IMG/VR virus record: IMGVR_UViG_3300010885_011661
Span: 1-24,084 of that record
DNA from: a virus
Direction: 5' to 3' (one strand)
DNA: 24,084 nucleotides
The translations under genes and the position numbers were made by a program. A model generated the notes under the pieces. The model ran no database searches, had not been told where the DNA came from, and saw nothing but the letters and a program-made list of their open reading frames with translations. This document shows, one piece after another, positions 4,491 through 22,976 of this stretch; positions within the stretch are counted from its first letter, which is position 1; each line of letters opens with the position of its first letter.

Positions 4491-5519
4491 ATGAATAAGA
4501 CTATTTTGATTACTGGCGGCGCTGGCTTTATTGCTCATCACGTTATTGATAAGGTTTTAAGCGAAACAGATTGGAACATTGTATCTCTTGACCGTCTAGA
4601 CTATTCCGGGAATCTTAACCGCCTTAACGAAGTCGTTATGTCGCATCCTGTTGAGGAACGTAAGCGTGTCAAGATTGTACATCATGATCTTAAGGCAGAA
4701 CTAAATCCTCAGATTCGTAATCTTTGTGGGAGTGTGAATTATATTGCACACCTCGCAGCTGGATCTCATGTTGATAGATCAATCGATTATCCTATGGAGT
4801 TTATTTTAGACAATGTTGTCGGCACAGCTAATATCCTCGAATTTGCACGTCATCAAGATAACCTCGAACGGTTCATCTACTTTTCAACAGATGAAATTTT
4901 TGGACCAGCACCCAATGGTGTTAAGTACAAGGAAAACGATCGCTACAACTCTACAAATCCCTACTCAGCATCCAAGGCAGGTGGTGAGGAAATTGTTGTC
5001 GCATACGAAAATACCTACAAGCTACCAGCAATTATCACTCACACGATGAATGTTTTTGGGGAACGTCAACATCCCGAAAAGTATGTGCCCATGTGCATTA
5101 AGAGAGCTCGGGATGGTGAAGTAATTACAATTCACTCAAATCCAGAGAAAACTAAAGCTGGATCTCGTCATTATATTCACGCTGCTGATGTCGCAGACGC
5201 TCTTCTGTTCTTGCTCAACTATGAGGGTATGGATAAACTTCCAGTTGACTTTGGAGGTGCTAAGTGTCAGAAGTTTAATATCGTAGGTGCTGAAGAACTC
5301 GATAATCTTGAACTAGCTCAAATTATTGCGGATGCGCAGGGTAAGACTCTAAACTATGAAATGGTGGACTTCCATTCACAGCGCCCTGGACACGATCTTC
5401 GATACGCTCTTGATGGTAGTAAGATGGAGAAGATGGGCTGGACACCACAACCTGTACGAGAACGTTTGAAGCAGGTTATTGCATGGTCTCTTGAAAATAA
5501 TCGTTGGCTTAAATTATGA
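4491..5519 (+). CDS. rmlB: dTDP-glucose 4,6-dehydratase-like protein
   Basis: NAD-dependent extended SDR enzyme, 342 residues, the usual length of RmlB and related 4,6-dehydratases, which convert an NDP-hexose into the 4-keto-6-deoxy sugar. The NAD-binding turn is TGGAGFIA (8-15; the usual last Gly is Ala). FSTDEIFG places T133, D134 and E135 where 4,6-dehydratases have their catalytic Thr-Asp-Glu, and Y158-x3-K162 (YSASK) is the SDR catalytic pair. NPYSASKAGGE and a later RHYIHAADVADAL segment are also typical. The start has AAGGTGG ten bases upstream. The partners RmlA, RmlC and RmlD are absent here. The dTDP-glucose substrate is inferred; GDP-mannose and UDP-GlcNAc are alternatives. Its stop overlaps the next gene by four bases. 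Confidence 0.8.
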   Translation: MNKTILITGGAGFIAHHVIDKVLSETDWNIVSLDRLDYSGNLNRLNEVVMSHPVEERKRVKIVHHDLKAELNPQIRNLCGSVNYIAHLAAGSHVDRSIDYPMEFILDNVVGTANILEFARHQDNLERFIYFSTDEIFGPAPNGVKYKENDRYNSTNPYSASKAGGEEIVVAYENTYKLPAIITHTMNVFGERQHPEKYVPMCIKRARDGEVITIHSNPEKTKAGSRHYIHAADVADALLFLLNYEGMDKLPVDFGGAKCQKFNIVGAEELDNLELAQIIADAQGKTLNYEMVDFHSQRPGHDLRYALDGSKMEKMGWTPQPVRERLKQVIAWSLENNRWLKL

Positions 5520-8679: not shown

Positions 8680-8868
8680 ATGCCAGAATATATAAAAATT
8701 AATAGCGATATGTGGGAAGATGCAGGAACGACCTATAAAGTTATTGATTATTTTAGTCGAAAGCCTAGATCATCCGCTGTGGAACTTACACTAGAACATC
8801 CTAACGGGCAAGAAATACATAGAGTAGTACCATATCACTGGATCGAATGGATCCCAGACGGAGAATAA
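8680..8868 (+). CDS. 62-aa hypothetical protein
   Basis: Starts at ATG 8680 with AGGA eight bases upstream and ends at TAA 8866-8868, two bases before the nrdB start. The sequence ([20 protein letters not shown], then [14 protein letters not shown]) suggests a small beta-barrel-like fold with a Trp-rich C-terminal end. No known family recognised. Its last codons hold the GGAG used as ribosome-binding site by nrdB, so the two may be translationally coupled. Confidence 0.65.
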
Positions 8869-8870
8869 AC

Positions 8871-9425
8871 TTGTCAGTCTTTAATATAGATAATAAAAAA
8901 AATCATCTTAGCCGTAATTGTTTTTTCGAGGAACCTGTAGATGTTGCTCGTTATGACAAGGTACGGTATCCTACGTTTGAAAAGCTAACTGAGAAACAGT
9001 TGTCTTTTTTCTGGCGGCCTGAAGAGGTAGAACTATCACGAGATAGTAAAGATTTTAAAGGCTTAAACGATCATGAAAAACATATTTTTACGTCTAATCT
9101 CAAGCGTCAAATCCTTCTTGATAGTGTACAGGGTCGTGCTCCATCTTTGGCTTTTCTCCCTATATGTTCGCTTCCTGAATTGGAAACCTGGATCCAGACT
9201 TGGGCGTTTAGTGAAACAATTCACTCCCGCTCTTACACTCATATCATTCGCAACGTCTATTCTGACCCTTCCAGAGTCTTTGATGAGATGTTGGGGATCC
9301 AGGAAATAGCTGATTGTGCTGCTAGTATCAGTAAGTACTATGATGAGTTGATTGAATATACAAATTTAGTAAATACTCATGGATATGAGTCAGAAATTGA
9401 AATTATCCAAGAAGAAAAGGAGTAA
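8871..9425 (+). CDS. nrdB: NrdB N-terminal half (split small subunit, cistron a)
   Basis: First half of the class Ia ribonucleotide reductase small subunit, which holds the diiron-tyrosyl radical. Start chosen at TTG 8871 because CGGAG (8859-8863) is seven bases upstream. With that start the residues fall on the E. coli numbers: W48, iron ligands D84 (LLDSVQG), E115 and H118, radical Y122 ([12 protein letters not shown]). An in-frame ATG at 8847 lacks a ribosome-binding site. The frame ends after 184 residues at TAA 9423-9425, in the linker after YYDELIE, although E. coli NrdB continues for about 190 more. The remainder is encoded from ATG 9428 in the -1 frame. It lacks the other ligands (E204, E238, H241), so it cannot form a radical cofactor alone. 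Confidence 0.92.
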
Positions 9426-9430
9426 TAATG
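9416..9430 (+). promoter_or_regulatory. Restart site between the two nrdB cistrons
   Basis: AAAGGAG at 9416-9422 is a near-perfect ribosome-binding site five bases before ATG 9428. The upstream cistron stops at TAA 9423-9425 within TAATAATG. This geometry favours termination-reinitiation. The downstream frame is open only back to 9401, so a -1 slip at the AAG codon (9417-9419) could instead give a fused protein, but no classic slippery heptamer is present. Confidence 0.65.
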
Positions 9431-9530
9431 AAACACGTATTAACACAATATGAACATAAAAAGAGACTATGGTTGACACTAAATGCAGTTAATGCATTAG
9501 AAGGTGTTCGCTTCTACGTTTCGTTTGCAT
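9428..9530 (+). CDS. nrdB: NrdB C-terminal half (cistron b), exon 1
   Basis: ATG 9428 opens the second NrdB frame. It reads MKHVLTQYEHKKRLWL, then AVNALEGVRFYVSFA, which aligns with the E. coli helix ending VNALEAIRFYVSFA. Exon 1 ends at T9530, the first base of a Cys codon; the genomic frame would otherwise hit TAG at 9530-9532. After removal of 9531-10635 the exons join in frame (103 + 482 bases = 195 codons), restoring A-C-S-W-A-F-A-E, the NrdB segment that carries the iron ligand equivalent to E204. Spliced product: 194 residues. Confidence 0.9.
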
Positions 9531-9683
9531 AGACATATATGTGCAATTAAAATGCTGTTAATTGCTGGAAACTCCTTAGAGCCTACATGCTACAATATCA
9601 TGTAATATGATATGAATGCTTTAATAAGTTGTAGGATTGGACAATCAGCAGCTAACACTTTTGCTTGAAGATGGGTATTTTTT

Positions 9684-9691
9684 TATAAATA
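9684..9691 (+). promoter_or_regulatory. Late-type promoter inside the intron P6 loop
   Basis: TATAAATA, identical to the T4 late promoter box, 22 bases before the homing endonuclease ATG at 9714. In T4 the td intron nuclease I-TevI is likewise driven by a late promoter within the intron. CTATAT (9693-9698) can pair with ATATAG (9718-9723) across the TAGGAG ribosome-binding site and the ATG, and a transcript starting near 9697 would lose most of the first arm. Match seen; regulation inferred. Confidence 0.55.
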
Positions 9692-9713
9692 ACTATATAT
9701 TAGGAGATAAACT

Positions 9714-10568
9714 ATGACATATAGAAAGATTTATAAAAAACATCATGGCAGTATTCCTGTTGATGATACAGGAAGAACTTATGATATCCATCATATCGAC
9801 GGTGATAGAAAAAACAATGATATAAAAAATCTTGTTGCACTATCTATCGAAGACCACTATCTAATACACCTAGAACAAAATGATTATCAAGCCGCAGCCG
9901 CAATAAGAATGCGTTGGGATAAAGATATCGCTGAAATATCAAAACTAAATTCTATTGCAGCTAAAAAAAGAGTTTCGGGAGGTATTCATCATTGGCTAGG
10001 TGATGGTAGTTATCAGAGAGACCAACAAGAAAAGTTGAAATCTTCTGGTGATTATTATCAATATTCACAAATTCATAAAGATAACATTTCTCATAGAAAT
10101 AAAGAATATTCTTCACAAGGAATACATAATTTTCAGACTGAAGAATCAAGAAATGCAGTGTCAGAAAGAAACCGTAAAAATATTGAAGCGGGAATTCATC
10201 CCTTTTGTAAAGGAATCGGTGCGGAAAATAGTAGAAACCGTATTATTGACGGCACACATCATTTCTTGAATAGCGACATCCAACGTAACAACTCAATGAA
10301 AGCTAAATTAGTCAATTCAATTAGAGTAAAACGTATCGATGTTGCGACAAATGATGAAGTTATCTTTATTGGAATATCAGATGCAATTAAACATACTCCT
10401 AACACAAAACGAAGAAGTATACAAAAAGCATATGAAACAGGAAAAAAATATTGTGGATATATGTGGATATCTTTAGGCAAAGGTGGAAGTTCAACGACTA
10501 TCTCTTCGGAGAGTACTGATCAAGTGATCGGGAAACACAGCACACCTTTTGGTGATGATATAGTCTGA
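9714..10568 (+). CDS. HNH homing endonuclease in nrdB intron
   Basis: Intron-encoded nuclease of 284 residues that would cut intronless nrdB alleles and spread the intron. The HNH core is near the N-terminus (H26-H27 in YDIHHIDGDRKNN, N34-N35, N39, H48). Next come four short G-[IT]-H-x-[FW] units at 90, 136, 160 and 180, spaced like NUMOD3-type DNA-binding repeats, and then an IENR1-like domain at about 203-254 (IDVATNDEVIFIGISDAI... GYMWISL). TAGGAG lies seven bases before ATG 9714. Residues 255-284 are encoded by the ribozyme core (P6 3' strand to P7), and the TGA directly follows P7, so this tail is ribozyme sequence read as protein. Translation would disturb folding of the intron, so timing of expression matters. 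Confidence 0.9.
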   Translation: MTYRKIYKKHHGSIPVDDTGRTYDIHHIDGDRKNNDIKNLVALSIEDHYLIHLEQNDYQAAAAIRMRWDKDIAEISKLNSIAAKKRVSGGIHHWLGDGSYQRDQQEKLKSSGDYYQYSQIHKDNISHRNKEYSSQGIHNFQTEESRNAVSERNRKNIEAGIHPFCKGIGAENSRNRIIDGTHHFLNSDIQRNNSMKAKLVNSIRVKRIDVATNDEVIFIGISDAIKHTPNTKRRSIQKAYETGKKYCGYMWISLGKGGSSTTISSESTDQVIGKHSTPFGDDIV

Positions 10569-10635
10569 TCTTATGGGAAACTATAAGCAGGGTAAGACCC
10601 GGAAAAGAAATAACGAATCTTTTCGAACACATATG

Positions 10636-11117
10636 GTAGCTGGGCATTCGCGGAAGTCAAAAAGATGGAGGGCAACGCGAAGATTATCAAACTCATCGCC
10701 CGTGATGAGAATGTTCACCTCGCCTCAACTCAGCAGCTCCTCAAACTTCTACCGAAAGAAGATGCAGACTTTGCACGCATACAAGAAGAGACACGATCTG
10801 AGTGTATTGACATATTTTATAAAGTGGTCGAGCAAGAAAAGAACTGGGCACGTTATCTATTTAAAGATGGTTCGATGATCGGTCTAAACGAAAAGCTACT
10901 GTGCTCTTATGTAGAATGGATTGCGGATAAACGTATGAGAGCTATTGGTCTCGATTCTCAATATAAGGCGAGTAGTAATCCACTACCTTGGACACAACGC
11001 TGGATAGCTGGATCAGATGTACAAGTAGCACCACAAGAAACACAAATTTCATCTTACCTTACTGGTTCGGTTAAACAAGATGTTACACAAGATTCATTTA
11101 AAGGTTTTTCTTTATGA
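10636..11117 (+). CDS. nrdB: NrdB C-terminal half (cistron b), exon 2
   Basis: Second exon of the split small subunit. It opens with the last two bases of a Cys codon and reads SWAFAEVKKMEGNAKIIKL onward. In the spliced 194-residue protein the iron ligands are E41 (AFAE), E59 and H62 (ARDENVH), the equivalents of E. coli E204, E238 and H241. The segment DGSMIGLNEKLLCSYVEWI and the VQVAPQETQISSYL stretch near the C-terminus match NrdB closely. The end DSFKGFSL is the tail that docks on NrdA. Radical-site Tyr and the other three ligands are on cistron a, so both polypeptides must assemble. The stop overlaps the next gene by four bases (ATGA, 11114-11117). Confidence 0.95.
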
Positions 11118-11302
11118 GAACAAAAGAAGAAGTTCTTTTTAATTTAGAGCATCGTGAAAAAATCTGCTGGGCTATGGCAGGAGTATTCCTACGTAATAAA
11201 GACGCGCATGGTATCCATGACATGGGTGTAGAAATTCAAGCGTTACAAAGAGCTATTCAAGAAATAAAAAATTTAGAGGACTCAAATAATGAAATGGATT
11301 AA
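11114..11302 (+). CDS. 62-aa hypothetical protein
   Basis: Starts in an ATGA overlap with the nrdB stop (ATG 11114); AAAGG at 11098-11102 may serve as ribosome-binding site. The product is mostly helical and charged (RTKEEVLFNLEHREKICWAM, then VEIQALQRAIQEIKNLE), consistent with a small two-helix or coiled-coil protein. No motif recognised. The next ORF starts before its stop (ATG 11289). Confidence 0.65.
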   Translation: MRTKEEVLFNLEHREKICWAMAGVFLRNKDAHGIHDMGVEIQALQRAIQEIKNLEDSNNEMD

Positions 11303-11423
11303 CTGCTCCGATTGCGGTGAAGAGTTTAGAGTCATTAGCGAAAGTCTAGAACCAGTAACATATTGTCCGTTGTGTGGCAATGTTCTGGAGGAAGAACTAG
11401 ATGAAGATGAAGAGGATTTCTAG
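11289..11423 (+). CDS. 44-aa zinc-ribbon protein
   Basis: ATG 11289 with GAGGA eight bases upstream (11276-11280), stop TAG 11421-11423. Two zinc knuckles, C6-x2-C9-G and C26-x2-C29-G, separated by 16 residues, are the plan of a rubredoxin-type zinc ribbon. A very acidic tail (EEELDEDEEDF) follows. Small zinc-ribbon proteins in phages may act as regulators or metal proteins; the target cannot be told. The overlap with the preceding gene and the Cys pattern make coding likely although it is short. Confidence 0.7.
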   Translation: MKWINCSDCGEEFRVISESLEPVTYCPLCGNVLEEELDEDEEDF

Positions 11424-11425
11424 TT

Positions 11426-11433
11426 AATAAATA
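11426..11433 (+). promoter_or_regulatory. Near-match to the late promoter box
   Basis: AATAAATA, one mismatch from TATAAATA, followed by AC as at 3225 and 9684. It lies in the only gap before the GIY-YIG gene, 34 bases before its chosen start. Homing endonuclease genes in T4-like phages are often late-expressed, which fits, but one mismatch in an A/T-rich gap is weak evidence. Confidence 0.3.
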
Positions 11434-11466
11434 ACTCCACTACTCTTTTTATTGTGGAGCGATATT

Positions 11467-11907
11467 TTGGCTTGGGTGTATAAAAATGAAGAGGTCCACG
11501 AGTTACCTGTGGATTGTGAAGCATTCGTGTATTTAATTACCAACAAAACAAATAATATGATGTATGTTGGTAAAAAACTAGCAAAGTTTAAAACTACAAA
11601 ACCGCCTCTTAAGGGTAAAAAGAATAAAAGAAGATCTACTAAAGAAAGCGATTGGCAAGATTACTGGGGGTCTAGTGAACGTCTTAAAGCAGATGTTGAT
11701 CTACTAGGCCCCGAAAACTTTATTAGAGAGATCTTGCATTTTTGTCCAAGTAGAGGTATTGCGAGCTATCTAGAAGCAAAAGTGCAATTCGAACGCCGTG
11801 TTCTAGAGACAGATAATTATTATAATGGTATTATTAATGTGCGTATAGGAGGATCTAATATCCTCAAAGAATATTTAAAAACATTAAACGATAAAGGAAT
11901 CCCATGA
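11467..11907 (+). CDS. GIY-YIG family nuclease, likely free-standing homing endonuclease
   Basis: About 146 residues with a GIY-YIG-like N-terminal domain: FVYLITNKTNNMMYVGKK takes the place of the GIY and YIG strands, followed by a basic patch (KGKKNKRRSTKESD), YWGSS, and FIREILHFCPS ahead of ASYLEAK, where the Glu of the catalytic core usually lies. Phage Seg-type endonucleases have this plan. Start: TTG 11467 is seven bases after GGAG (11456-11459); a TTG at 11452 lacks a ribosome-binding site. With no intron around it, it would be a free-standing element. It lies 350 bases after nrdB exon 2, so together with the HNH gene two mobile nucleases flank that exon. A host-DNA-degrading role is also possible. 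Confidence 0.7.
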   Translation: MAWVYKNEEVHELPVDCEAFVYLITNKTNNMMYVGKKLAKFKTTKPPLKGKKNKRRSTKESDWQDYWGSSERLKADVDLLGPENFIREILHFCPSRGIASYLEAKVQFERRVLETDNYYNGIINVRIGGSNILKEYLKTLNDKGIP

Positions 11908-12831: not shown

Positions 12832-13072
12832 GCAAGAACTTATCAATCAGCTACGTCAACATACAGCTGATATTACTTTTACAAAAAAAGACGGTACCAA
12901 GCGGATTATGAAGTGTACGCTTGACGAAGCTGTCACTATAGTCTATGAAAAGAAAACAGACCGTACTCGTGAACCCATTGATAATATTCTACCCGTATGG
13001 GATTTAGAAGCAGGTGCGTGGCGTTCTGTTAATATTGATACCATTGAGGATATAAAATTTTATGTCATTTAA
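12821..13072 (+). CDS. Small phage protein with SH3-like beta fold
   Basis: 83 residues from TTG 12821, a start chosen because the upstream in-frame codons lie within the glutaredoxin gene; AGAG at 12813-12816 is a weak ribosome-binding site. The sequence ITFTKKDGTKRIMKCTLDEA, then ILPVWDLEAGAWRSVNIDTI, matches a common T4-like small protein pattern (KKDG...R..KCTL, then VWD...WR), probably a small beta barrel. Function unknown. A longer version from 12770 is possible but lies within the glutaredoxin gene. It overlaps the glycosyltransferase start by 11 bases. Confidence 0.65.
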   Translation: MPSKQELINQLRQHTADITFTKKDGTKRIMKCTLDEAVTIVYEKKTDRTREPIDNILPVWDLEAGAWRSVNIDTIEDIKFYVI

Positions 13073-14057
13073 GCGTAATGAACAGAACGCTAAATCTCAG
13101 GGTGGATCAGAATTGATGGCTGAACGTTTGTTCAGTTATCTGCCCACAGAGCTTACAGATCAATTTCAATTCACATTATCGCGTGTGCGGGAGCTAGAAG
13201 AAGACAAATATCGTATCTATTGGGTGCATGATTTGCCGTGGGATCCGGAACTACAACATCTAAAAGAATCTTCCTCCATCGCACGTTTCCATAAGATTGT
13301 TTTTTGTGGTAATTGGCAATACAATCAATTTCAGAATGTTCTAAATATTCCCTTCTCTCCTGATATTAGTGTTATTAATACAGGAATTATACCTCTTCAA
13401 CCTATTGCTAAAGATATCAATACTATCAGACTCATTTATACATCTACACCTCAACGCGGTCTAGAGATTCTAATACCTGTATTCGAAGAACTGTGCAAGC
13501 ATTTCCCTAATATACATTTAGACGTATTCTCTTCGTTTAAGATCTATGGCTGGGAACAACGAGACGCGGATTACGAAATTCTATACGACCGATGTCGCAA
13601 TCATCCTAATATCACATACCATGGTTTCCAGTCTAACGATGTAGTGCGTTCCTATGTAGAAAAAGCACACATCCTAGCATATCCATCTATTTGGATGGAA
13701 TGTAATTCTCAGTCTATTGCTGAAGCGATGTCTGGGGGTGCTATGGTAGTGGCACCTAATTATGGAGGTATCGTAGAAGGTACTGGTAACTTAGCAATGA
13801 CATATACTTTCTTGGAAGATAAGAATGCACATGCTAATCTTTTTTTTCAGATGATGGTACATGCTATACGCACAGTTAATACAGAAGAAATGCAAAATTA
13901 TCTACAGTTAGTTAAGATGTATGCAGATCATCGATACCATATCAACAACATCTCTAAGATCTGGGAAAATTTACTTGAATCTGTAGTTGCAACTGCGCCC
14001 TCTAAATCACTAGCACCTATACGCGCAACAAGTAATTACTTTGAGTACAAGCCATGA
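13062..14057 (+). CDS. GT-B glycosyltransferase (GT4-like)
   Basis: 331 residues, first gene of the sugar cluster. It begins NEQNAKSQGGSELMAERLF, the loop at the start of many GT4 enzymes. YTSTPQRGLEIL opens the donor domain and SIWMECNSQSIAEAMSGG with VVAPNYGG holds the donor motif E-x7-E (E in MECNSQSIAE). The HDLPWDPELQ segment is part of the acceptor side. GAGGA at 13046-13050 is 11 bases before ATG 13062. It overlaps the following HAD gene by four bases, consistent with one operon for making and using one sugar donor. The donor could be the heptose from the genes at 14054-16884, but that is inferred from position only. Confidence 0.8.
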   Translation: MSFKRNEQNAKSQGGSELMAERLFSYLPTELTDQFQFTLSRVRELEEDKYRIYWVHDLPWDPELQHLKESSSIARFHKIVFCGNWQYNQFQNVLNIPFSPDISVINTGIIPLQPIAKDINTIRLIYTSTPQRGLEILIPVFEELCKHFPNIHLDVFSSFKIYGWEQRDADYEILYDRCRNHPNITYHGFQSNDVVRSYVEKAHILAYPSIWMECNSQSIAEAMSGGAMVVAPNYGGIVEGTGNLAMTYTFLEDKNAHANLFFQMMVHAIRTVNTEEMQNYLQLVKMYADHRYHINNISKIWENLLESVVATAPSKSLAPIRATSNYFEYKP

Positions 14058-14380
14058 TTTATATTGTCGATATAGACAATACTATTTGCGATACTTATAT
14101 GGTTGACGGCAAATGGGACTATGAAAACTCGATACCTAATCTAGATCGTATCTCTAAAATAAATTCTCTGTTCGATGAAGGCCATACTATTAATTACTGG
14201 ACAGCACGAGGTTCTGGGTCTGGTTTAGACTGGTCTGAGCTCACTAAACAGCAACTAGATTCATGGGGATGTAAGTATCATGAAATTAGACTCGGAAAGC
14301 CATCCTACGATATCTGGATTGACGACAAAGCATTCAACGACAAACACTTCTTTGACTCCGATGGAAAATTGCCAATATGA
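14054..14380 (+). CDS. HAD phosphatase, capsule-biosynthesis type
   Basis: 108-residue HAD-fold protein without a cap domain. Motif I is D6-I-D8-N-T10 (IYIVDIDNTICDT), motif II T50 (YWTARG), motif III K82 (GKPSYD) and motif IV D90-D91 (WIDDKAFND). The size and TARGSGSGLDW stretch resemble the EcbF/BcbF capsule-biosynthesis phosphatases. In a cluster with a GmhA-like isomerase and an HddA-like kinase, it is a candidate to dephosphorylate heptose 1,7-bisphosphate, the step done by GmhB in bacteria. It is shorter than GmhB and lacks its zinc loop, so this is an inference from context. Overlaps both neighbours by four bases. Confidence 0.75.
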   Translation: MIYIVDIDNTICDTYMVDGKWDYENSIPNLDRISKINSLFDEGHTINYWTARGSGSGLDWSELTKQQLDSWGCKYHEIRLGKPSYDIWIDDKAFNDKHFFDSDGKLPI

Positions 14381-15345
14381 AAGTACTAGTGACCGGTCAC
14401 AGAGGGTACATTGGATCCGTGATGGTAGAGATGATGAAAGAGCTTGGAATTTTCTGTACTGGAGTTGATAATAACTATACACATACATCTATTGATCTCT
14501 TAACAGATTTATATATGAGTGTGAGTGTTAGTGAGTTACAACTGGCACAGATGGTTGTAAAAGAGGAAATTACACATATCTTTCACTTTGCAGCCTCTGC
14601 TGCTATTGCTGATTCAGTTACTAACCCAGCTCTTTATTACTGGAATAATATCGGGGAAACAGCTAAGCTGCTAGGTAATCTTCATGGTCTGGGCTGGAAG
14701 GGTAAATTTATCTTCTCTTCTACCGCTGCTGTCTATGGAGAAGACGGCTACCAGGCATATGAACATCAAGAGAAATCTCCTTGTAATCCGTATGGGCATT
14801 CTAAGTTAATGTGTGAGCAGGCTATCGAGGATATTTGTTCGAAAGCAGGAATTGATTGCGTTATTTTTCGTTACTTTAATGTAGCTGGCGCACATAGTAA
14901 AACCGGGGATCACTTAGATTCGGATCATATTCTTCCTAAGATCTGTTCTGCAATTTATGATAAGAAATGCTTTACGATAAACGGGAATGGGTACCAAACA
15001 AAGGATGGTACTTGTATTCGTGATTATGTGCATGTTCTAGATATTTGCCGCGCCCACTTACATGCTTCTGAATATTTAGAAACTAATCCTGGCATACATA
15101 CCTTTAATCTAGGATCCGGAGAAGGTTTTACTAATAAAGAAATAGTAGAAGCTTTTCAAAAGTATACAGGTGAAGAGCTTGAATACGTATACGGACCTAT
15201 GAGACCTGGTGATCCACCAGCGTTAATCGCTAACAACGATAAGTTTATCAGTAGGACTGGGTTTGAATATATACATACCGATCTTGAAAAAATTGTAACA
15301 TCCTCCTGGGAATGGTATAAAAAGTTTAGAACAAGGAATTTGTAA
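14377..15345 (+). CDS. galE: UDP-glucose 4-epimerase-like SDR protein
   Basis: 322-residue NAD-dependent epimerase with the GalE plan. G7-x2-G10-x2-G13 (TGHRGYIGS) binds NAD, FSSTAAVYG carries the catalytic Ser/Thr, and Y139-x3-K143 (PYGHSKLM) is the SDR pair. FRYFNVAGAH and the CIRDYVHVLDICRAHL region are highly typical of UDP-glucose 4-epimerase. It interconverts NDP-glucose and NDP-galactose or the GlcNAc/GalNAc pair; substrate specificity is open. The ATG overlaps the HAD stop by four bases, and its stop shares one base with the kinase ATG (TAATG). Confidence 0.87.
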   Translation: MKVLVTGHRGYIGSVMVEMMKELGIFCTGVDNNYTHTSIDLLTDLYMSVSVSELQLAQMVVKEEITHIFHFAASAAIADSVTNPALYYWNNIGETAKLLGNLHGLGWKGKFIFSSTAAVYGEDGYQAYEHQEKSPCNPYGHSKLMCEQAIEDICSKAGIDCVIFRYFNVAGAHSKTGDHLDSDHILPKICSAIYDKKCFTINGNGYQTKDGTCIRDYVHVLDICRAHLHASEYLETNPGIHTFNLGSGEGFTNKEIVEAFQKYTGEELEYVYGPMRPGDPPALIANNDKFISRTGFEYIHTDLEKIVTSSWEWYKKFRTRNL

Positions 15346-16283
15346 TGATTTTGGCAAAAGCTCCCATGCGAGTTTCCTTTTTCGGTGGTGGATCTGATAT
15401 CCCCGCACACTATATGAAATGGGGAGGTTCTACAATTTCAATGGCAATAGACAAATACGTCTATGTTACAGTAAATCATACTCCGCATGATCATATCAAA
15501 ATCTCGTATATGAAGCAAGAGCTTGTATACCATATTGACAATATCAAAAACGATATTGTACGTAATGCTCTATTATACTTTGGTATTGATAGTAATATCG
15601 AAATCACATCATTCGCTGATATTCCTACAATGGGGACCGGTCTTGGCGGATCCTCATCATTTACTTGCGCTCTTGTAGCTGCTCTTGCTGAATATAAAGA
15701 GCTTGAATATAATCCTTTTCAGATTGCAGAAACAGCTTGCTATATTGAAATTAATATGTGTGACTGGCATATCGGCAAGCAAGATCAGTACGCGGCCGCG
15801 ATGGGTGGTATGAATTATATCAAATATAGTATTGAGGATCACATTTCTGTGACAAGAATGGATTCCGGTCAGATTGAGTATTCCATGGTTCTTATACCCA
15901 CCAATATTCAACGACATGCAGCGGAGATACTTGATAATATTGACTTTAAATCCCGCCAGTTTGTAATACGCGAGTTGTCGTTGCTTGCCGATCTACATTG
16001 CAAAGATATACCTGAAGTAGAAGATTACGGTAAATTACTCAACCTTGCCTGGAATCTTAAGAAACAAATGGATGCGGGTATCTCTAATAATGCAATTGAT
16101 AATATGTATGATAGGTGCCTTGCTAACGGTGCTTTTGGTGCTAAGCTATTAGGTGCTGGCGGCGGCGGGTTTATGCTTGCATTAACTCGTGATAAAGATA
16201 AACTGAAAGAATCATTTTCAGACCGAGTGTGTCTAGATGTAAGAATTGCACAAGAAGGAGCTAAAGTTGTCTACAGAGACTGA
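15345..16283 (+). CDS. hddA: GHMP kinase, HddA-like (heptose 7-phosphate kinase)
   Basis: 312-residue GHMP-family sugar kinase. APMRVSFFGGGSDIP at the N-terminus, GTGLGGSSSFTCAL (ATP loop, motif 2) and KLLGAGGGGFMLAL (motif 3) are all present, along with GKQDQYAAAMGG, which is typical of the D-glycero-D-manno-heptose 7-phosphate 1-kinases (HddA) and related fucose kinases. In that pathway it converts heptose 7-phosphate to the 1,7-bisphosphate, after GmhA and before a phosphatase and a nucleotidyltransferase. It overlaps the GmhA-like gene by 17 bases. Heptose specificity is supported by the neighbour, not by any residue I can point to. Confidence 0.85.
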   Translation: MILAKAPMRVSFFGGGSDIPAHYMKWGGSTISMAIDKYVYVTVNHTPHDHIKISYMKQELVYHIDNIKNDIVRNALLYFGIDSNIEITSFADIPTMGTGLGGSSSFTCALVAALAEYKELEYNPFQIAETACYIEINMCDWHIGKQDQYAAAMGGMNYIKYSIEDHISVTRMDSGQIEYSMVLIPTNIQRHAAEILDNIDFKSRQFVIRELSLLADLHCKDIPEVEDYGKLLNLAWNLKKQMDAGISNNAIDNMYDRCLANGAFGAKLLGAGGGGFMLALTRDKDKLKESFSDRVCLDVRIAQEGAKVVYRD

Positions 16284-16884
16284 TTATACATTGGATAAGA
16301 TTTATATTCAACATACTAAGGCTATAGTACATGGCCTAGAGTCTATTGATCCATATAATTTTCAAAAGGCTGCTGATATTATCTGCGAAGCTATTAAGAC
16401 TCGTAGAAACATCTATACTATTGGCAACGGCGCATCGGCTGCTATTGCTCAGCACTGGGCTTGTGATTATACTAAAGGATGTTCTAATCTAAAACCCGAA
16501 GAGGGAAAGTTTCTTAAAGTAAGAGTACACTCTCTCGCAGCTAACATTCCTCTGATGACAGCTATTTCTAATGACGTGTCATACGATGAAGTTTATGCTT
16601 ATCAGATTGAACGTCTAGGGGCGCCAGGGGATGTATTGATCACTATTAGTAGCTCTGGCAATTCTCCTAACGTTGTTAGGGCTATCGAAGCCGCTATCGA
16701 AGAGAAGATGCATGTTATCACACTCACTGGATTCGAAGGAGGTAAGTCTAAGATAATGGCAGAAGAATACCTACATGGAGTTAATGTCCATGTAGATTGT
16801 CCAGAGTATGAAGCCACTGAAGATGTCCATCAGGCAATAATGCACATGATTGCAAAATATATTCGTCAGAAATTTTGGGCTTGA
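16267..16884 (+). CDS. gmhA: Phosphoheptose isomerase, GmhA-like
   Basis: SIS-domain isomerase, 205 residues, likely making D-glycero-D-manno-heptose 7-phosphate from sedoheptulose 7-phosphate. TTG 16267 is chosen because AAGGAG (16255-16260) is six bases upstream; an in-frame TTG at 16246 has no such site. The motif NIYTIGNGASAAIAQHWACD is the GmhA substrate loop, ISSSGNSPNVVRAIEAA is the SIS signature, and EYEATEDVHQAIMHMIAK is the C-terminal helix with the catalytic Glu/His pair of the family. It overlaps the kinase stop by 17 bases. With the kinase at 15345 and the phosphatase at 14054 it gives three of the four steps to a nucleotide-activated heptose; no nucleotidyltransferase is seen. 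Confidence 0.87.
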   Translation: MSTETDYTLDKIYIQHTKAIVHGLESIDPYNFQKAADIICEAIKTRRNIYTIGNGASAAIAQHWACDYTKGCSNLKPEEGKFLKVRVHSLAANIPLMTAISNDVSYDEVYAYQIERLGAPGDVLITISSSGNSPNVVRAIEAAIEEKMHVITLTGFEGGKSKIMAEEYLHGVNVHVDCPEYEATEDVHQAIMHMIAKYIRQKFWA

Positions 16885-20213: not shown

Positions 20214-20966
20214 ATGGTTGCACGTACACCAAGACTAACCAAAAGACAACAGAAACTATCTGAAAAAGGTAATATAAAACTTGTTCCGACTATTAAACAA
20301 CAACACTTTAATTTAAAAGAAATTTATCCGATCACGGACAATCAAGTAAAAACTGTAGATGCTTATGTACTAGGTAAAAATTTATTTTTACATGGCTGTG
20401 CTGGTACAGGAAAAACCTTTTTAAGTATGTTTCTTGCGCTCAACGAAATTATGAATGAAAAATCTCCCCGTAAAAAACTTGTTATTATTCGCAATACACA
20501 GTCTTCGAAAGATCAGGGCTTTCTACCTGGTAATGCTAAAGAAAAGGGAGAAATTTTCGAAGCGGCTTACAGATCTATTTGCTGTGAATTATTCAATCGA
20601 GACGATGCTTACGAAATTCTTAAACAAAAAGGAATTATTGAATTCCACACTACTTCTTATCTTCGTGGCACCACTATTGAAAATGCAATTATTTTAGTAG
20701 ATGAAGTTCAGAATCAGAGATATGTTGAGCTAAGAACTGTCTTGACAAGAACTGGAGATAATAGTAGAGTAATACTTTGTGGAGATACAAAGCAGGATGA
20801 TCTATCTTCGACACGCTATAATGAAGTGTCTGGACTTAAAGATATGATGAAAGTGTTTGAACGTATGGGCTTTATGACTACTGTTCAATTTGGTATTGAT
20901 GATATTGTGCGATCTGGATTTGTGAAGTCATTTATTATCGCGGAGTATGAACTAGGATTATATTGA
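20214..20966 (+). CDS. phoH: PhoH-like ATPase
   Basis: P-loop ATPase of the PhoH family, 250 residues. Walker A GCAGTGKT at 61-68, RNTQSSKDQGFLPGN between the two Walker motifs, Walker B ILVDEVQN (D163, E164) and the sensor-like LCGDTKQDD. ATG 20214 is preferred because AAGGAG (20203-20208) is five bases upstream; an in-frame GTG at 20181 has no clear ribosome-binding site. PhoH is common in T4-like marine phages; proposed roles in RNA metabolism or phosphate stress are unproven. Overlaps the next gene by one base (TGATG). Confidence 0.88.
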   Translation: MVARTPRLTKRQQKLSEKGNIKLVPTIKQQHFNLKEIYPITDNQVKTVDAYVLGKNLFLHGCAGTGKTFLSMFLALNEIMNEKSPRKKLVIIRNTQSSKDQGFLPGNAKEKGEIFEAAYRSICCELFNRDDAYEILKQKGIIEFHTTSYLRGTTIENAIILVDEVQNQRYVELRTVLTRTGDNSRVILCGDTKQDDLSSTRYNEVSGLKDMMKVFERMGFMTTVQFGIDDIVRSGFVKSFIIAEYELGLY

Positions 20967-21649
20967 TGTTTAATATTGATCTCATTGAACTACCTAAACT
21001 GGTACGTATCGATGGGGAAATGAGATACTACGAAACGCCAACAGGAGAACGGTATCCTTCTGTTACTACAGTACTAGGCAATACAAAAGATAAATCTGGT
21101 CTAGACGCATGGCGTAAAAGAGTTGGAGAAGAAGAGGCAGACCGTACCATGAAACGCTCCGGCAGACGTGGTACGGCTGTCCATCTTATGTGTGAAAAAC
21201 TAGTTCTTAATCAGCCTATAGATTTTAAAGAAGAGATGCCGCTTAATGTAATGATGTTTAAGCAACTCGAAAAGTTTTTAACAGAAAATGTAAACGGCAT
21301 ACGAGTATCAGAAGGCTCTTTATTTTCTCACAAGCTCAAAGTAGCAGGGTCTGTGGATCTAGTTGCTAACTATCGCAACCACGCTGCTATTATTGACTTT
21401 AAGACCTCTGCAAAAAATAAGCGTAGGGACTGGATTGAAGATTACTTTATTCAAGCAGCTATGTACTCTTACATGTTATGGGAAATGACACAGCTATATC
21501 ATCCAAAATTGGTTATTGCTATTGCTATGGAAGAAGAGATTCTTCCACAGATCTTTGAAGAAGATGTTAACAACTGGTTAGACAAGGCTCGGGACCGTTG
21601 TAAACAATTTCATACTATAAATATTAGACATTCCAACATTATTCTATAG
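20966..21649 (+). CDS. PD-(D/E)XK nuclease, exonuclease-like
   Basis: 227-residue nuclease of the RecB/Cas4-like PD-(D/E)XK superfamily. The core is AGSVDLVANY (D131) followed by IDFKTSAK (D144-F-K146) and the downstream FIQAAMYSYML (motif Q-x3-Y), the order usual in this fold. An N-terminal YPSVTTVLG segment and the GRRGTAVHLMCEKL helix match phage exonucleases of this type. No Fe-S cysteine set of Cas4 is present. ATG 20966 shares one base with the PhoH stop; a TTG at 20963 is weaker. Likely processes DNA ends during replication, recombination or packaging. TATAAATA inside its last codons (21616) may be the promoter of the next gene. Confidence 0.85.
   Translation: MFNIDLIELPKLVRIDGEMRYYETPTGERYPSVTTVLGNTKDKSGLDAWRKRVGEEEADRTMKRSGRRGTAVHLMCEKLVLNQPIDFKEEMPLNVMMFKQLEKFLTENVNGIRVSEGSLFSHKLKVAGSVDLVANYRNHAAIIDFKTSAKNKRRDWIEDYFIQAAMYSYMLWEMTQLYHPKLVIAIAMEEEILPQIFEEDVNNWLDKARDRCKQFHTINIRHSNIIL
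21616..21623 (+). promoter_or_regulatory. Late promoter box within the nuclease gene end
   Basis: TATAAATA inside the last 12 codons of the PD-(D/E)XK gene, 34 bases before the secreted nuclease ATG at 21658. Exact match to the T4 late box. It lies in coding sequence, so chance is possible, but the distance to the next start equals that of the other candidate late promoters. Confidence 0.35.
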
Positions 21650-21657
21650 GTTATACT

Positions 21658-22302
21658 ATGAAAAGACTGCTAGTGTTTGCTTCTTTATTGCTCTCTAATC
21701 CTGTACATGCATCACCGTGCGATCAGTTCTTTCCAAATGGTAAAGAAATTGCTGTACCAGGCACTCAAGTTATATGTCGCTCCTTTTACGCAACTGTATA
21801 TGATACAAAGCACGAAGCTAACGTGTTCTCCACTGAGATAGACCATCCGAAAGGTAAAAAAGCACCTCGTGTTAGCTCATTCCATAGTGACCCAGCAGTA
21901 GTTAATTCTCCTACCCCCGAGGATTACACAAACACTGGTTTCGACCGTGGTCACATGACACCGGCTGCCGATTCGTATAGTGCCATTCAGAGTTATGATA
22001 CATTCTTCATGACTAACATAACCCCTCAATACCCTAACGTAAATCGTATTGCCTGGAAGAATCTAGAAAGTTCTGTCCGGGACATGTCTTTTAATTATGT
22101 TGTTACCGGTGCCTACTATGCCAACTACAACACTGTTATTGGTAAGCACAAGGTTCCAGTACCTACGTCGATCTATAAGATCGTATATCTAAAAGATGGT
22201 AGCATTAAAGCCTTTGAGGCGGACAACGTTAAGAAAAACAAACAAGCTAAACCTGTCGATATTGCAGTTATCGAAAAACAAACAGGAATTAAATTCCATT
22301 GA
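21658..22302 (+). CDS. Secreted DNA/RNA non-specific endonuclease (NUC/DRGH)
   Basis: 214 residues with an export signal: MKRLLVFASLLLSNPVHA, two basic residues, a short hydrophobic core and an AxA-like site after A18. C21 and C40 could form a disulfide in the periplasm. The catalytic motif D96-R-G-H99 (FDRGHMTPAAD), the metal Asn in TNITPQ, and WKNLESSVRDM identify the beta-beta-alpha-Me nuclease family of Serratia nuclease. It degrades DNA and RNA without sequence preference. A phage making a periplasmic or secreted nuclease could destroy DNA entering during superinfection, or salvage nucleotides outside the cell. It stands alone before the 22307 promoter. Confidence 0.9.
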   Translation: MKRLLVFASLLLSNPVHASPCDQFFPNGKEIAVPGTQVICRSFYATVYDTKHEANVFSTEIDHPKGKKAPRVSSFHSDPAVVNSPTPEDYTNTGFDRGHMTPAADSYSAIQSYDTFFMTNITPQYPNVNRIAWKNLESSVRDMSFNYVVTGAYYANYNTVIGKHKVPVPTSIYKIVYLKDGSIKAFEADNVKKNKQAKPVDIAVIEKQTGIKFH

Positions 22303-22362: not shown

Positions 22363-22554
22363 ATGTCCTACACCACTTTCAACACTCCAGTCGAACCCAA
22401 ATGGCCAGACTATGGTTGCAACATCTACAAAGAAGGAATTTTTGTAGAGGGACGTATTTATCCTAACTATAGCGGAAACGCTATGATGGATGAAGTAAAA
22501 GATCTGAAGATGTTTGTTTTTAAACCTTCAGATGGATATAATATCGAATGGTAA
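22363..22554 (+). CDS. 63-aa hypothetical protein
   Basis: ATG 22363 with a strong purine ribosome-binding site (GAAGGAAAGGAAA). The product is rich in aromatic residues and prolines (PVEPKWPDYGCNIYKEGIF, then PNYSGNAMMDEVKDLKMF). It resembles no family I know; a small beta-fold protein is likely. It is the first gene after the 22307 promoter. Confidence 0.65.
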   Translation: MSYTTFNTPVEPKWPDYGCNIYKEGIFVEGRIYPNYSGNAMMDEVKDLKMFVFKPSDGYNIEW

Positions 22555-22565
22555 AAGGATATAAT

Positions 22566-22976
22566 ATGAATGTAATTGATCTAAACAAGTACGCGGACTT
22601 TGCTTTCGAACTAGCATCAGATGAAAGTAGGTTTATCGAATCTCTGATCTATCGTCTACGCACACTACACGATCATGAAACTGTAAACGTACCTCTACTG
22701 ATGGCAGCAGCAGCGGGTCTTAGTAGTGAAGGCGGTGAATTTAATGAAATTGTCAAGAAGATTCTATTCCAGGGTAAGCCTCTTAACGAGGAAAACATTT
22801 TCCATATGAAGCGGGAACTAGGCGATATTGCCTGGTACTGGATTAACGCATGTAATGCACTCGACCTAGATCCGAATGATGTTCTCGCCGAGAATATAAA
22901 CAAACTACAGTCTCGATACCCTGGCGGTGCCTTCGATGCCTCCTACTCTGAGAACCGAAAAGAGGGGGATATATAA
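22566..22976 (+). CDS. mazG: MazG-like nucleotide pyrophosphohydrolase
   Basis: 136 residues with an all-alpha NTP pyrophosphatase core: LSSEGGEFNEIVKKIL replaces the EExxE metal helix, RELGDIAWYWINACNAL gives the second metal site (ExxD), and NKLQSRYPGGAFD is the usual C-terminal end. It hydrolyses NTPs or dNTPs to monophosphates and may also lower ppGpp in phage-infected cells, an effect proposed for cyanophage MazG. ATG 22566 is six bases after AAAAGGA; an in-frame ATG at 22548 is less well placed. The next gene starts 14 bases after its stop. Confidence 0.87.
   Translation: MNVIDLNKYADFAFELASDESRFIESLIYRLRTLHDHETVNVPLLMAAAAGLSSEGGEFNEIVKKILFQGKPLNEENIFHMKRELGDIAWYWINACNALDLDPNDVLAENINKLQSRYPGGAFDASYSENRKEGDI

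Follow-up and report, generated by a model that had tools for sequence, protein, structure and literature searches.

A predicted exported Endonuclease_NS nuclease recurs at several genome positions in likely T4-like phages

Introduction

The family and fold of the NucA/EndoG-type nucleases are already known. Anabaena NucA is an extracellular enzyme, the Serratia marcescens nuclease is a secreted bacterial enzyme and endonuclease G (EndoG) is mitochondrial, whereas the protein analyzed here is encoded by a phage. Exported nucleases borne by phages are known as well, from the CJIE elements of Campylobacter and, as annotated genes, from jumbo phages. PMC4372405 describes the CJIE4 nuclease as an extracellular DNase with DNA-degrading and biofilm-removing activity. 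The experimentally tested exported phage-borne nucleases that we found come from integrated elements and alter the living host.

Here we describe a gene for a predicted exported nuclease within a 24,084-base stretch of DNA, hereafter the window, which is an entire virus record. What is new is the size and uniformity of the T4-like nuclease lineage to which this gene belongs. Among the papers listed by searches of the open-licence PMC literature, none dealt with exported nucleases in T4-like phages, which is no proof of absence.

Results

The open reading frame at 21658–22302 (plus strand) starts with ATG and encodes 214 amino acids. It matches the Pfam family Endonuclease_NS (PF01223) with an E value of 1.2e-33 and 117 bits, against a cut-off of 23, over positions 12–217 of the 223-position profile, and it also matches the PHROG 'nuclease' family phrog_14168 (E 1.3e-29); a search of NCBIfam returned no family for it. 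By sequence, the closest solved structures are mitochondrial endonuclease G, Anabaena NucA, EXOG and Serratia nuclease. An AlphaFold model computed from a 50-row alignment reached a mean pLDDT of 91.5 and a pTM of 0.86, and its comparison by VIA gave a Z score of 25.1 with an rmsd of 2.0 over 194 residues for Anabaena NucA (2o3b) and a Z score of 22.5 for Serratia nuclease, while Foldseek matched it to mouse EndoG at an E value of 2e-15. The predicted fold, shared with NucA and Serratia nuclease, is the beta-beta-alpha-Me nuclease fold. The lowest-quality region of the model comprises residues 1–20, as is expected of a signal peptide.

The active site appears complete. The DRGH motif occupies residues 96–99 (21943–21954, plus strand), within which His99 is presumably the general base, by comparison with NucA and Serratia nuclease, and Asn129 (codon 22042–22044, plus strand) is presumably a Mg2+ ligand. 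Residues R71, D96, R97, G98, H99, N120, N129, W133, E137, R141 and K174 are identical in all 49 full-length phage proteins (48 relatives plus the window) and in 17 of 17 Xanthomonadales proteins. The spacing of H99, N129, E137 and R141 closely resembles that of NucA and Serratia nuclease. The mature nuclease is under strong purifying selection, with a pN of 0.135 and a pS of 0.79 between the window and one relative (L002). An earlier note on this DNA had proposed a non-specific nuclease on the strength of the DRGH motif, and the PF01223 match together with the full set of active-site residues bears this out. As predicted from its family, the enzyme should be of the Mg2+-dependent type that cuts both DNA and RNA.

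The earlier note had further described a signal peptide at the start of the protein. The segment in question, residues 1–18 (21658–21711, plus strand; MKRLL..VHA|SPC), ends in V-H-A|S at residue 18. These residues belong to the longest possible reading of the frame: an in-frame TAG stop lies at 21625–21627, and neither ATG, GTG nor TTG occurs from there to the ATG at 21658. Furthermore, in 49 of 49 unique viral relatives (the window not counted, the shortened protein of locus L012 included), the start that our script picked nearest the aligned place is also ATG. We scored the N-terminus with a home-made rule, consisting of a basic residue near the start, an uncharged hydrophobic run and a small-x-small site. 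Of the 32 window genes, the nuclease alone passes, and all 49 unique viral relatives among the matches listed pass as well, compared with 7 of 234 other genes from 13 loci, a background obtained from a script output of 8/235 by removing L167, a nuclease that the filter had missed.

Among the 30 other phage rows of the alignment, mean identity to the window is 28% for residues 2–17 and 53% for the remainder, and it rises to 94% for residues 18–30, although this last figure and the conservation of the cleavage site are partly built in by retrieval with N-terminal peptides. The letters of the signal segment thus drift while its character is kept. Exactly two cysteines are present, both shortly past the predicted cleavage site: Cys21 (codon 21718–21720, plus strand) and Cys40 (codon 21775–21777, plus strand). 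Both of these, which the earlier note had pointed out, occur without exception in the 49 full-length phage proteins and in the 17 Xanthomonadales homologues. The invariant Ala18 and the two cysteines that follow fit a cut after Ala18 and one C21–C40 disulfide. The product of the window gene is very probably an exported nuclease, a prediction from sequence that agrees with the earlier proposal and with the signal-like N-terminus kept in every unique relative.

A DNA-level search of the phage collection with the window sequence gave zero matches. Protein relatives were therefore sought with short peptide patterns, among them ASPCDQF and FPNGKE[IV], a procedure that favors relatives sharing this N-terminus. 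The first retrieval, in which five of six patterns lay outside the extreme N-terminus, yielded 11 loci, all with an N-terminus identical in kind. The second, with ASPCDQF and FPNGKE[IV], yielded 84 viral loci, of which the best 80 were used, with 47–74% identity to the query. Together the two sets comprise 88 loci, with some records present twice, and at least 49 unique proteins from IMG/VR. Bacterial matches numbered 402 loci; the best 80 of these were kept, and within those 80 identity does not exceed 43% and mostly extends over parts of the protein. Isolated phages hold remote relatives only (27 of 50,697 records, all below 60% identity); in Klebsiella phage K64-1, Xanthomonas phage XaC1 and Sinorhizobium phage Phosso, the nuclease begins with a segment that, judged by eye, is signal-like. 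One further match, labelled 'Acinetobacter phage MD-2021a' (L177, CAKLQH020000003.1), was rejected as phage evidence, since kup, aqpZ and an efflux gene surround its nuclease and the sequence looks like bacterial chromosome.

The alignment and tree drew on 31 of the 50 unique phage proteins, counting that of the window, together with 19 of the 80 bacterial loci, all hand-chosen for spread; four isolate-phage sequences brought the tree to 54 rows. A branch with support 100/99 separates the 31 phage rows from all others, a unity that is partly built in by the N-terminal peptide retrieval, and their closest neighbors are the isolate phages and Xanthomonadales. Recent capture of the nuclease from a host is disfavored by this tree and by the divergence from bacterial homologues.

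The gene lies at several genome positions. In the window it directly follows a PD-(D/E)XK exonuclease gene (20963–21649, plus strand; phrog_298, E 2e-64; PF12705), and the second gene downstream encodes a MazG-like pyrophosphatase (22548–22976, plus strand; phrog_229, E 9.4e-44). We sorted 50 unique loci, window included, into classes by their neighboring genes, as called by a script that simply picks longest open reading frames. In class A (n = 3) the nuclease stands behind PhoH and the exonuclease; in class B (n = 28) it lies between a small gene and DNA polymerase, in the order regA-hsp20-c0-nuclease-polymerase; in class C (n = 3) it follows a UvsX/DnaB-type helicase pair; in class D (n = 6) it follows the sliding clamp gene with a tRNA-Asn in between; and in class E (n = 2) it follows nrdB. 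Class F (n = 2) places it near an endolysin-like gene (phrog_938), class G (n = 2) includes one locus whose vicinity holds a gene weakly matching a tail protein (phrog_13892, E 6.5e-07), and four loci were assigned to 'other'. Replication or nucleotide genes, not lysis genes, adjoin the nuclease in 42 of the 50 loci, and an endolysin-like neighbor occurs only in the two class F loci. In one of these (L010), the endolysin-like gene at 11301–11867 has a hydrophobic N-terminal segment and lies two open reading frames behind the nuclease. The occurrence of one lineage at several positions indicates that the gene moves among phages and is retained. No neighbor is common to the nuclease across its positions among the 50 loci, and a dedicated inhibitor gene next door is thus not evident.

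Upstream of the nuclease, the octamer TATAAATA occurs at 21616–21623 (plus strand), 42 nt 5' of the ATG and within the 3' end of the exonuclease gene. It is found four times in the window, against a chance mean of 4.02. Since the raw number equals chance, only its placing is informative: 4 of 4 copies sit 30–44 nt upstream of a same-strand gene start, versus 18 among 111 octamers composed of those letters. A scan of the window for sigma-70 promoters and terminators gave nothing above chance. Of 93 ATAAATA copies in 16 loci of these phages, 47 lie between −60 and −15 relative to a gene start, the top share among the permutations listed, and the next permutation, TAAATAA, overlaps it. Late-type boxes also precede Gp23 and other Gp23-region genes in two records (L171 and L172), and the paper on phage Melnitz treats TATAAAT as a known T4-like late promoter (PMC9004378). 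Given this placing near gene starts, the Gp23-region boxes and the Melnitz usage, the box at 21616 probably represents a genuine late-type promoter. The remaining copies of TATAAATA, at 9684, 18373 and 3225, precede an HNH endonuclease, RNase H and a glycosyltransferase-like open reading frame, respectively, so the distribution of late-type boxes extends beyond structural genes.

Across the 50 loci, a late-type box lies directly upstream of the nuclease in seven, namely all three of class A (the window among them), one of two in class G and three of four 'other' loci; the baseline is 22 of 182 other genes in 12 loci. A weaker CTAAATA precedes the nuclease in all three class C loci. Class B has no box directly before the nuclease in any of its 28 loci, and in 22 of them the box stands before hsp20, at the head of hsp20-c0-nuclease (for example in L104, L105 and L108), which suggests a late unit within the replication cluster. 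No box was found upstream of the nuclease in the 6 loci of class D or the 2 of class E, where 65 nt were searched, nor in the 2 of class F. The idea that the box generally travels with the gene is therefore rejected, given the absence of the box from classes D, E and F and its position two genes upstream in class B. Replication and nucleotide genes are usually expressed early or middle. The earlier note had taken the box at 21616 to indicate late expression, and that suggestion holds in part: the placing is credible and has a precedent at Gp23, but uniformly late expression is disfavored, because the neighbors are replication and nucleotide genes and classes D and E are boxless. Late supply is plausible for many relatives, though not for all.

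The window carries genes for T4-type RNase H, PhoH, primase, ribonucleotide reductase, thymidylate synthase and the PD-(D/E)XK exonuclease. The nearest relatives of its RNase H, at 51–52%, are those of cyanophages, of the Methylophilales phages Melnitz and of Stenotrophomonas phage DLP6. T4-type Gp23 is present in 7 of 31 longer nuclease-carrying records; a search for tyrosine integrase (PF00589), the one integrase type covered, found none in these 31 records, completeness being established for none of them, and was positive in 14 of 14 control genomes. Within the window, searches for Gp23 and for PF00589 integrase found neither. The nuclease-bearing phages are likely T4-like and lytic in lifestyle, judging by this gene content.

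Two other features of the window were recorded. First, nrdB is split (8847–11117): the part at 8847–9425 covers phrog_86 profile positions 44–209, the part at 10665–11117 covers positions 250–402, and an open reading frame for an HNH 'intron-like' endonuclease lies between them (9714–10568). In the relative L012, nrdB is undivided and the nuclease follows immediately behind it. Rfam reported no intron at the split nrdB at its cut-offs, and Rfam and ARAGORN found nothing on the window. Second, the regions 4491–5519 and 13062–16884 hold a sugar-nucleotide set comprising dTDP-glucose dehydratase-like, GalE, HddA-like kinase, GmhA-like phosphoheptose isomerase and glycosyltransferase-like genes, with the majority of matches under curated cut-offs; these genes may alter host surface sugars.

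Discussion

We tentatively place the main role of the nuclease at lysis, a choice to which we give a little under an even chance. Sec would carry the chain out unfolded, signal peptidase would cut after Ala18 and the C21–C40 disulfide would form in the periplasm. The Mg2+-dependent enzyme would then be active only in that compartment, and replicating phage DNA would be spared without an inhibitor protein. Less surely, the nuclease would be made mainly late and stay in the periplasm until the phage permeabilizes the inner membrane and the cell lyses, whereupon it would digest unpackaged DNA and RNA, the packaged genomes being shielded by their capsids. The periplasmic endonuclease I of E. coli is reported to reach chromosomal DNA at lysis and to be inhibited by cell RNA (PMC5739488). 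An enzyme of the DNA/RNA type should escape this shut-down and, unlike endonuclease I, stay active amid the flood of RNA at lysis. The earlier note had also raised salvage; this option is weak on general grounds, since a phage would gain scarcely anything from nucleotides that its enzyme frees in the periplasm or once the cell has lysed.

An unlikely but more specific form of the proposal is that a widespread T4-like lineage stockpiles a two-substrate periplasmic nuclease as a lysis-gated, RNA-insensitive weapon, which would do no harm as long as the inner membrane stays intact and would be freed on unpackaged DNA and RNA when the holin opens. Later-phage DNA in the periplasm has been proposed as one of the signals behind lysis inhibition in T4 (PMC6832632), so the same nuclease might also erase that signal and thereby tune the timing of lysis.

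The strongest alternative, which we regard as possible though somewhat doubtful, is superinfection exclusion, in which the exported nuclease would cut the DNA of later phages, plasmids or transforming DNA as it crosses the periplasm. Lytic T4 itself exports the periplasmic protein Spackle (gp61.3), whose signal peptide is cleaved and which is implicated in resistance to later T4 (PMC7650644), and in C. jejuni natural competence is reportedly shut off by the exported DNases of CJIE1, CJIE2 and CJIE4, and cells that lose the CJIE4 enzyme reportedly no longer degrade DNA (PMC4372405). The position of the nuclease gene, mostly among replication genes, would suit earlier expression. However, DNA delivered by a tail tube might at no stage lie free in the periplasm, and exclusion would be most useful early, yet late-type boxes are likely. 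The boxes tilt the balance slightly toward lysis, and the replication neighbors tilt it the opposite way.

That the main role is something other than lysis or attack on incoming DNA is improbable. One such role, rated as quite unlikely, would be in host fitness or the environment, the enzyme lowering extracellular DNA (in biofilm, or as viscosity) around infected cells or freeing nutrients, as cellular homologues do. Inactivation of the CJIE4 enzyme gene is reported to restore biofilm in C. jejuni (PMC4372405), but the lack of tyrosine integrase in all 31 longer records, incomplete as they are, makes a long-term benefit to a living host unlikely. We give little credence to a passenger gene that was acquired from a host not long ago and lacks any phage function: the family is common in bacteria, as the 402 matched loci attest, but the phage proteins form a single well-supported clade at several positions, with purifying selection and an invariant active site, and the bacterial homologues, at least the best 80 of 402, are distant and mostly partial. 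Least probable of all is a nuclease that is virion-associated, or that gets back into a cell at the next infection and attacks the DNA of the new host, since a cleavable Sec signal would take it out of the cytoplasm, where virions assemble, and its neighbors vary between phages, even though the box resembles that of structural genes and one class G locus lies near the weak tail-protein match.

Recurrence of close relatives in many similar phages points to a useful extracytoplasmic job for the predicted enzyme. The lineage recurs at several positions in T4-like phages that appear incapable of integration, and for that reason the nuclease should serve infection itself. It offers a concrete, deletable gene for asking whether phages manage extracytoplasmic nucleic acid, be it against rivals or at lysis.

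Among known systems, Anabaena NucA (PDB 2o3b, 1zm8) has the fold and active-site set of the window nuclease at 27% identity over the aligned part. NucA comes with an intracellular inhibitor, NuiA, according to the title of a structure entry, whereas no counterpart was seen near the phage nuclease. Mouse EndoG and the Serratia marcescens nuclease share the Pfam fold at about 22–30% identity. The Campylobacter CJIE4 nuclease (of the CJE1441 kind) is a phage-borne relative with 29.8% identity and a signal-like N-terminus; it differs in sitting in an element with an annotated phage repressor, unlike the T4-like window phage, in having no cysteines at the two aligned places and in occupying a separate long branch of the tree. 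The jumbo phages XaC1, K64-1/RaK2 and Phosso resemble the present case as large phages whose nucleases have a signal-like N-terminus and the two aligned cysteines, and the K64-1 nuclease carries the annotation 'periplasmic'. However, these proteins, with 28–34% identity, form a group apart from the window clade, and in XaC1 and K64-1 (L173 and L174) Met or Lys replaces R97 of DRGH.

E. coli endonuclease I (EndA) is not known to belong to the family of the window nuclease. It is likewise a non-specific periplasmic nuclease, and it is described as inhibited by RNA (PMC5739488). Finally, T4 Spackle exemplifies periplasmic export by a lytic T4-type phage, as proposed here, but it is described as a 97-residue lysozyme inhibitor (PMC7650644), whereas the window protein is a predicted nuclease.
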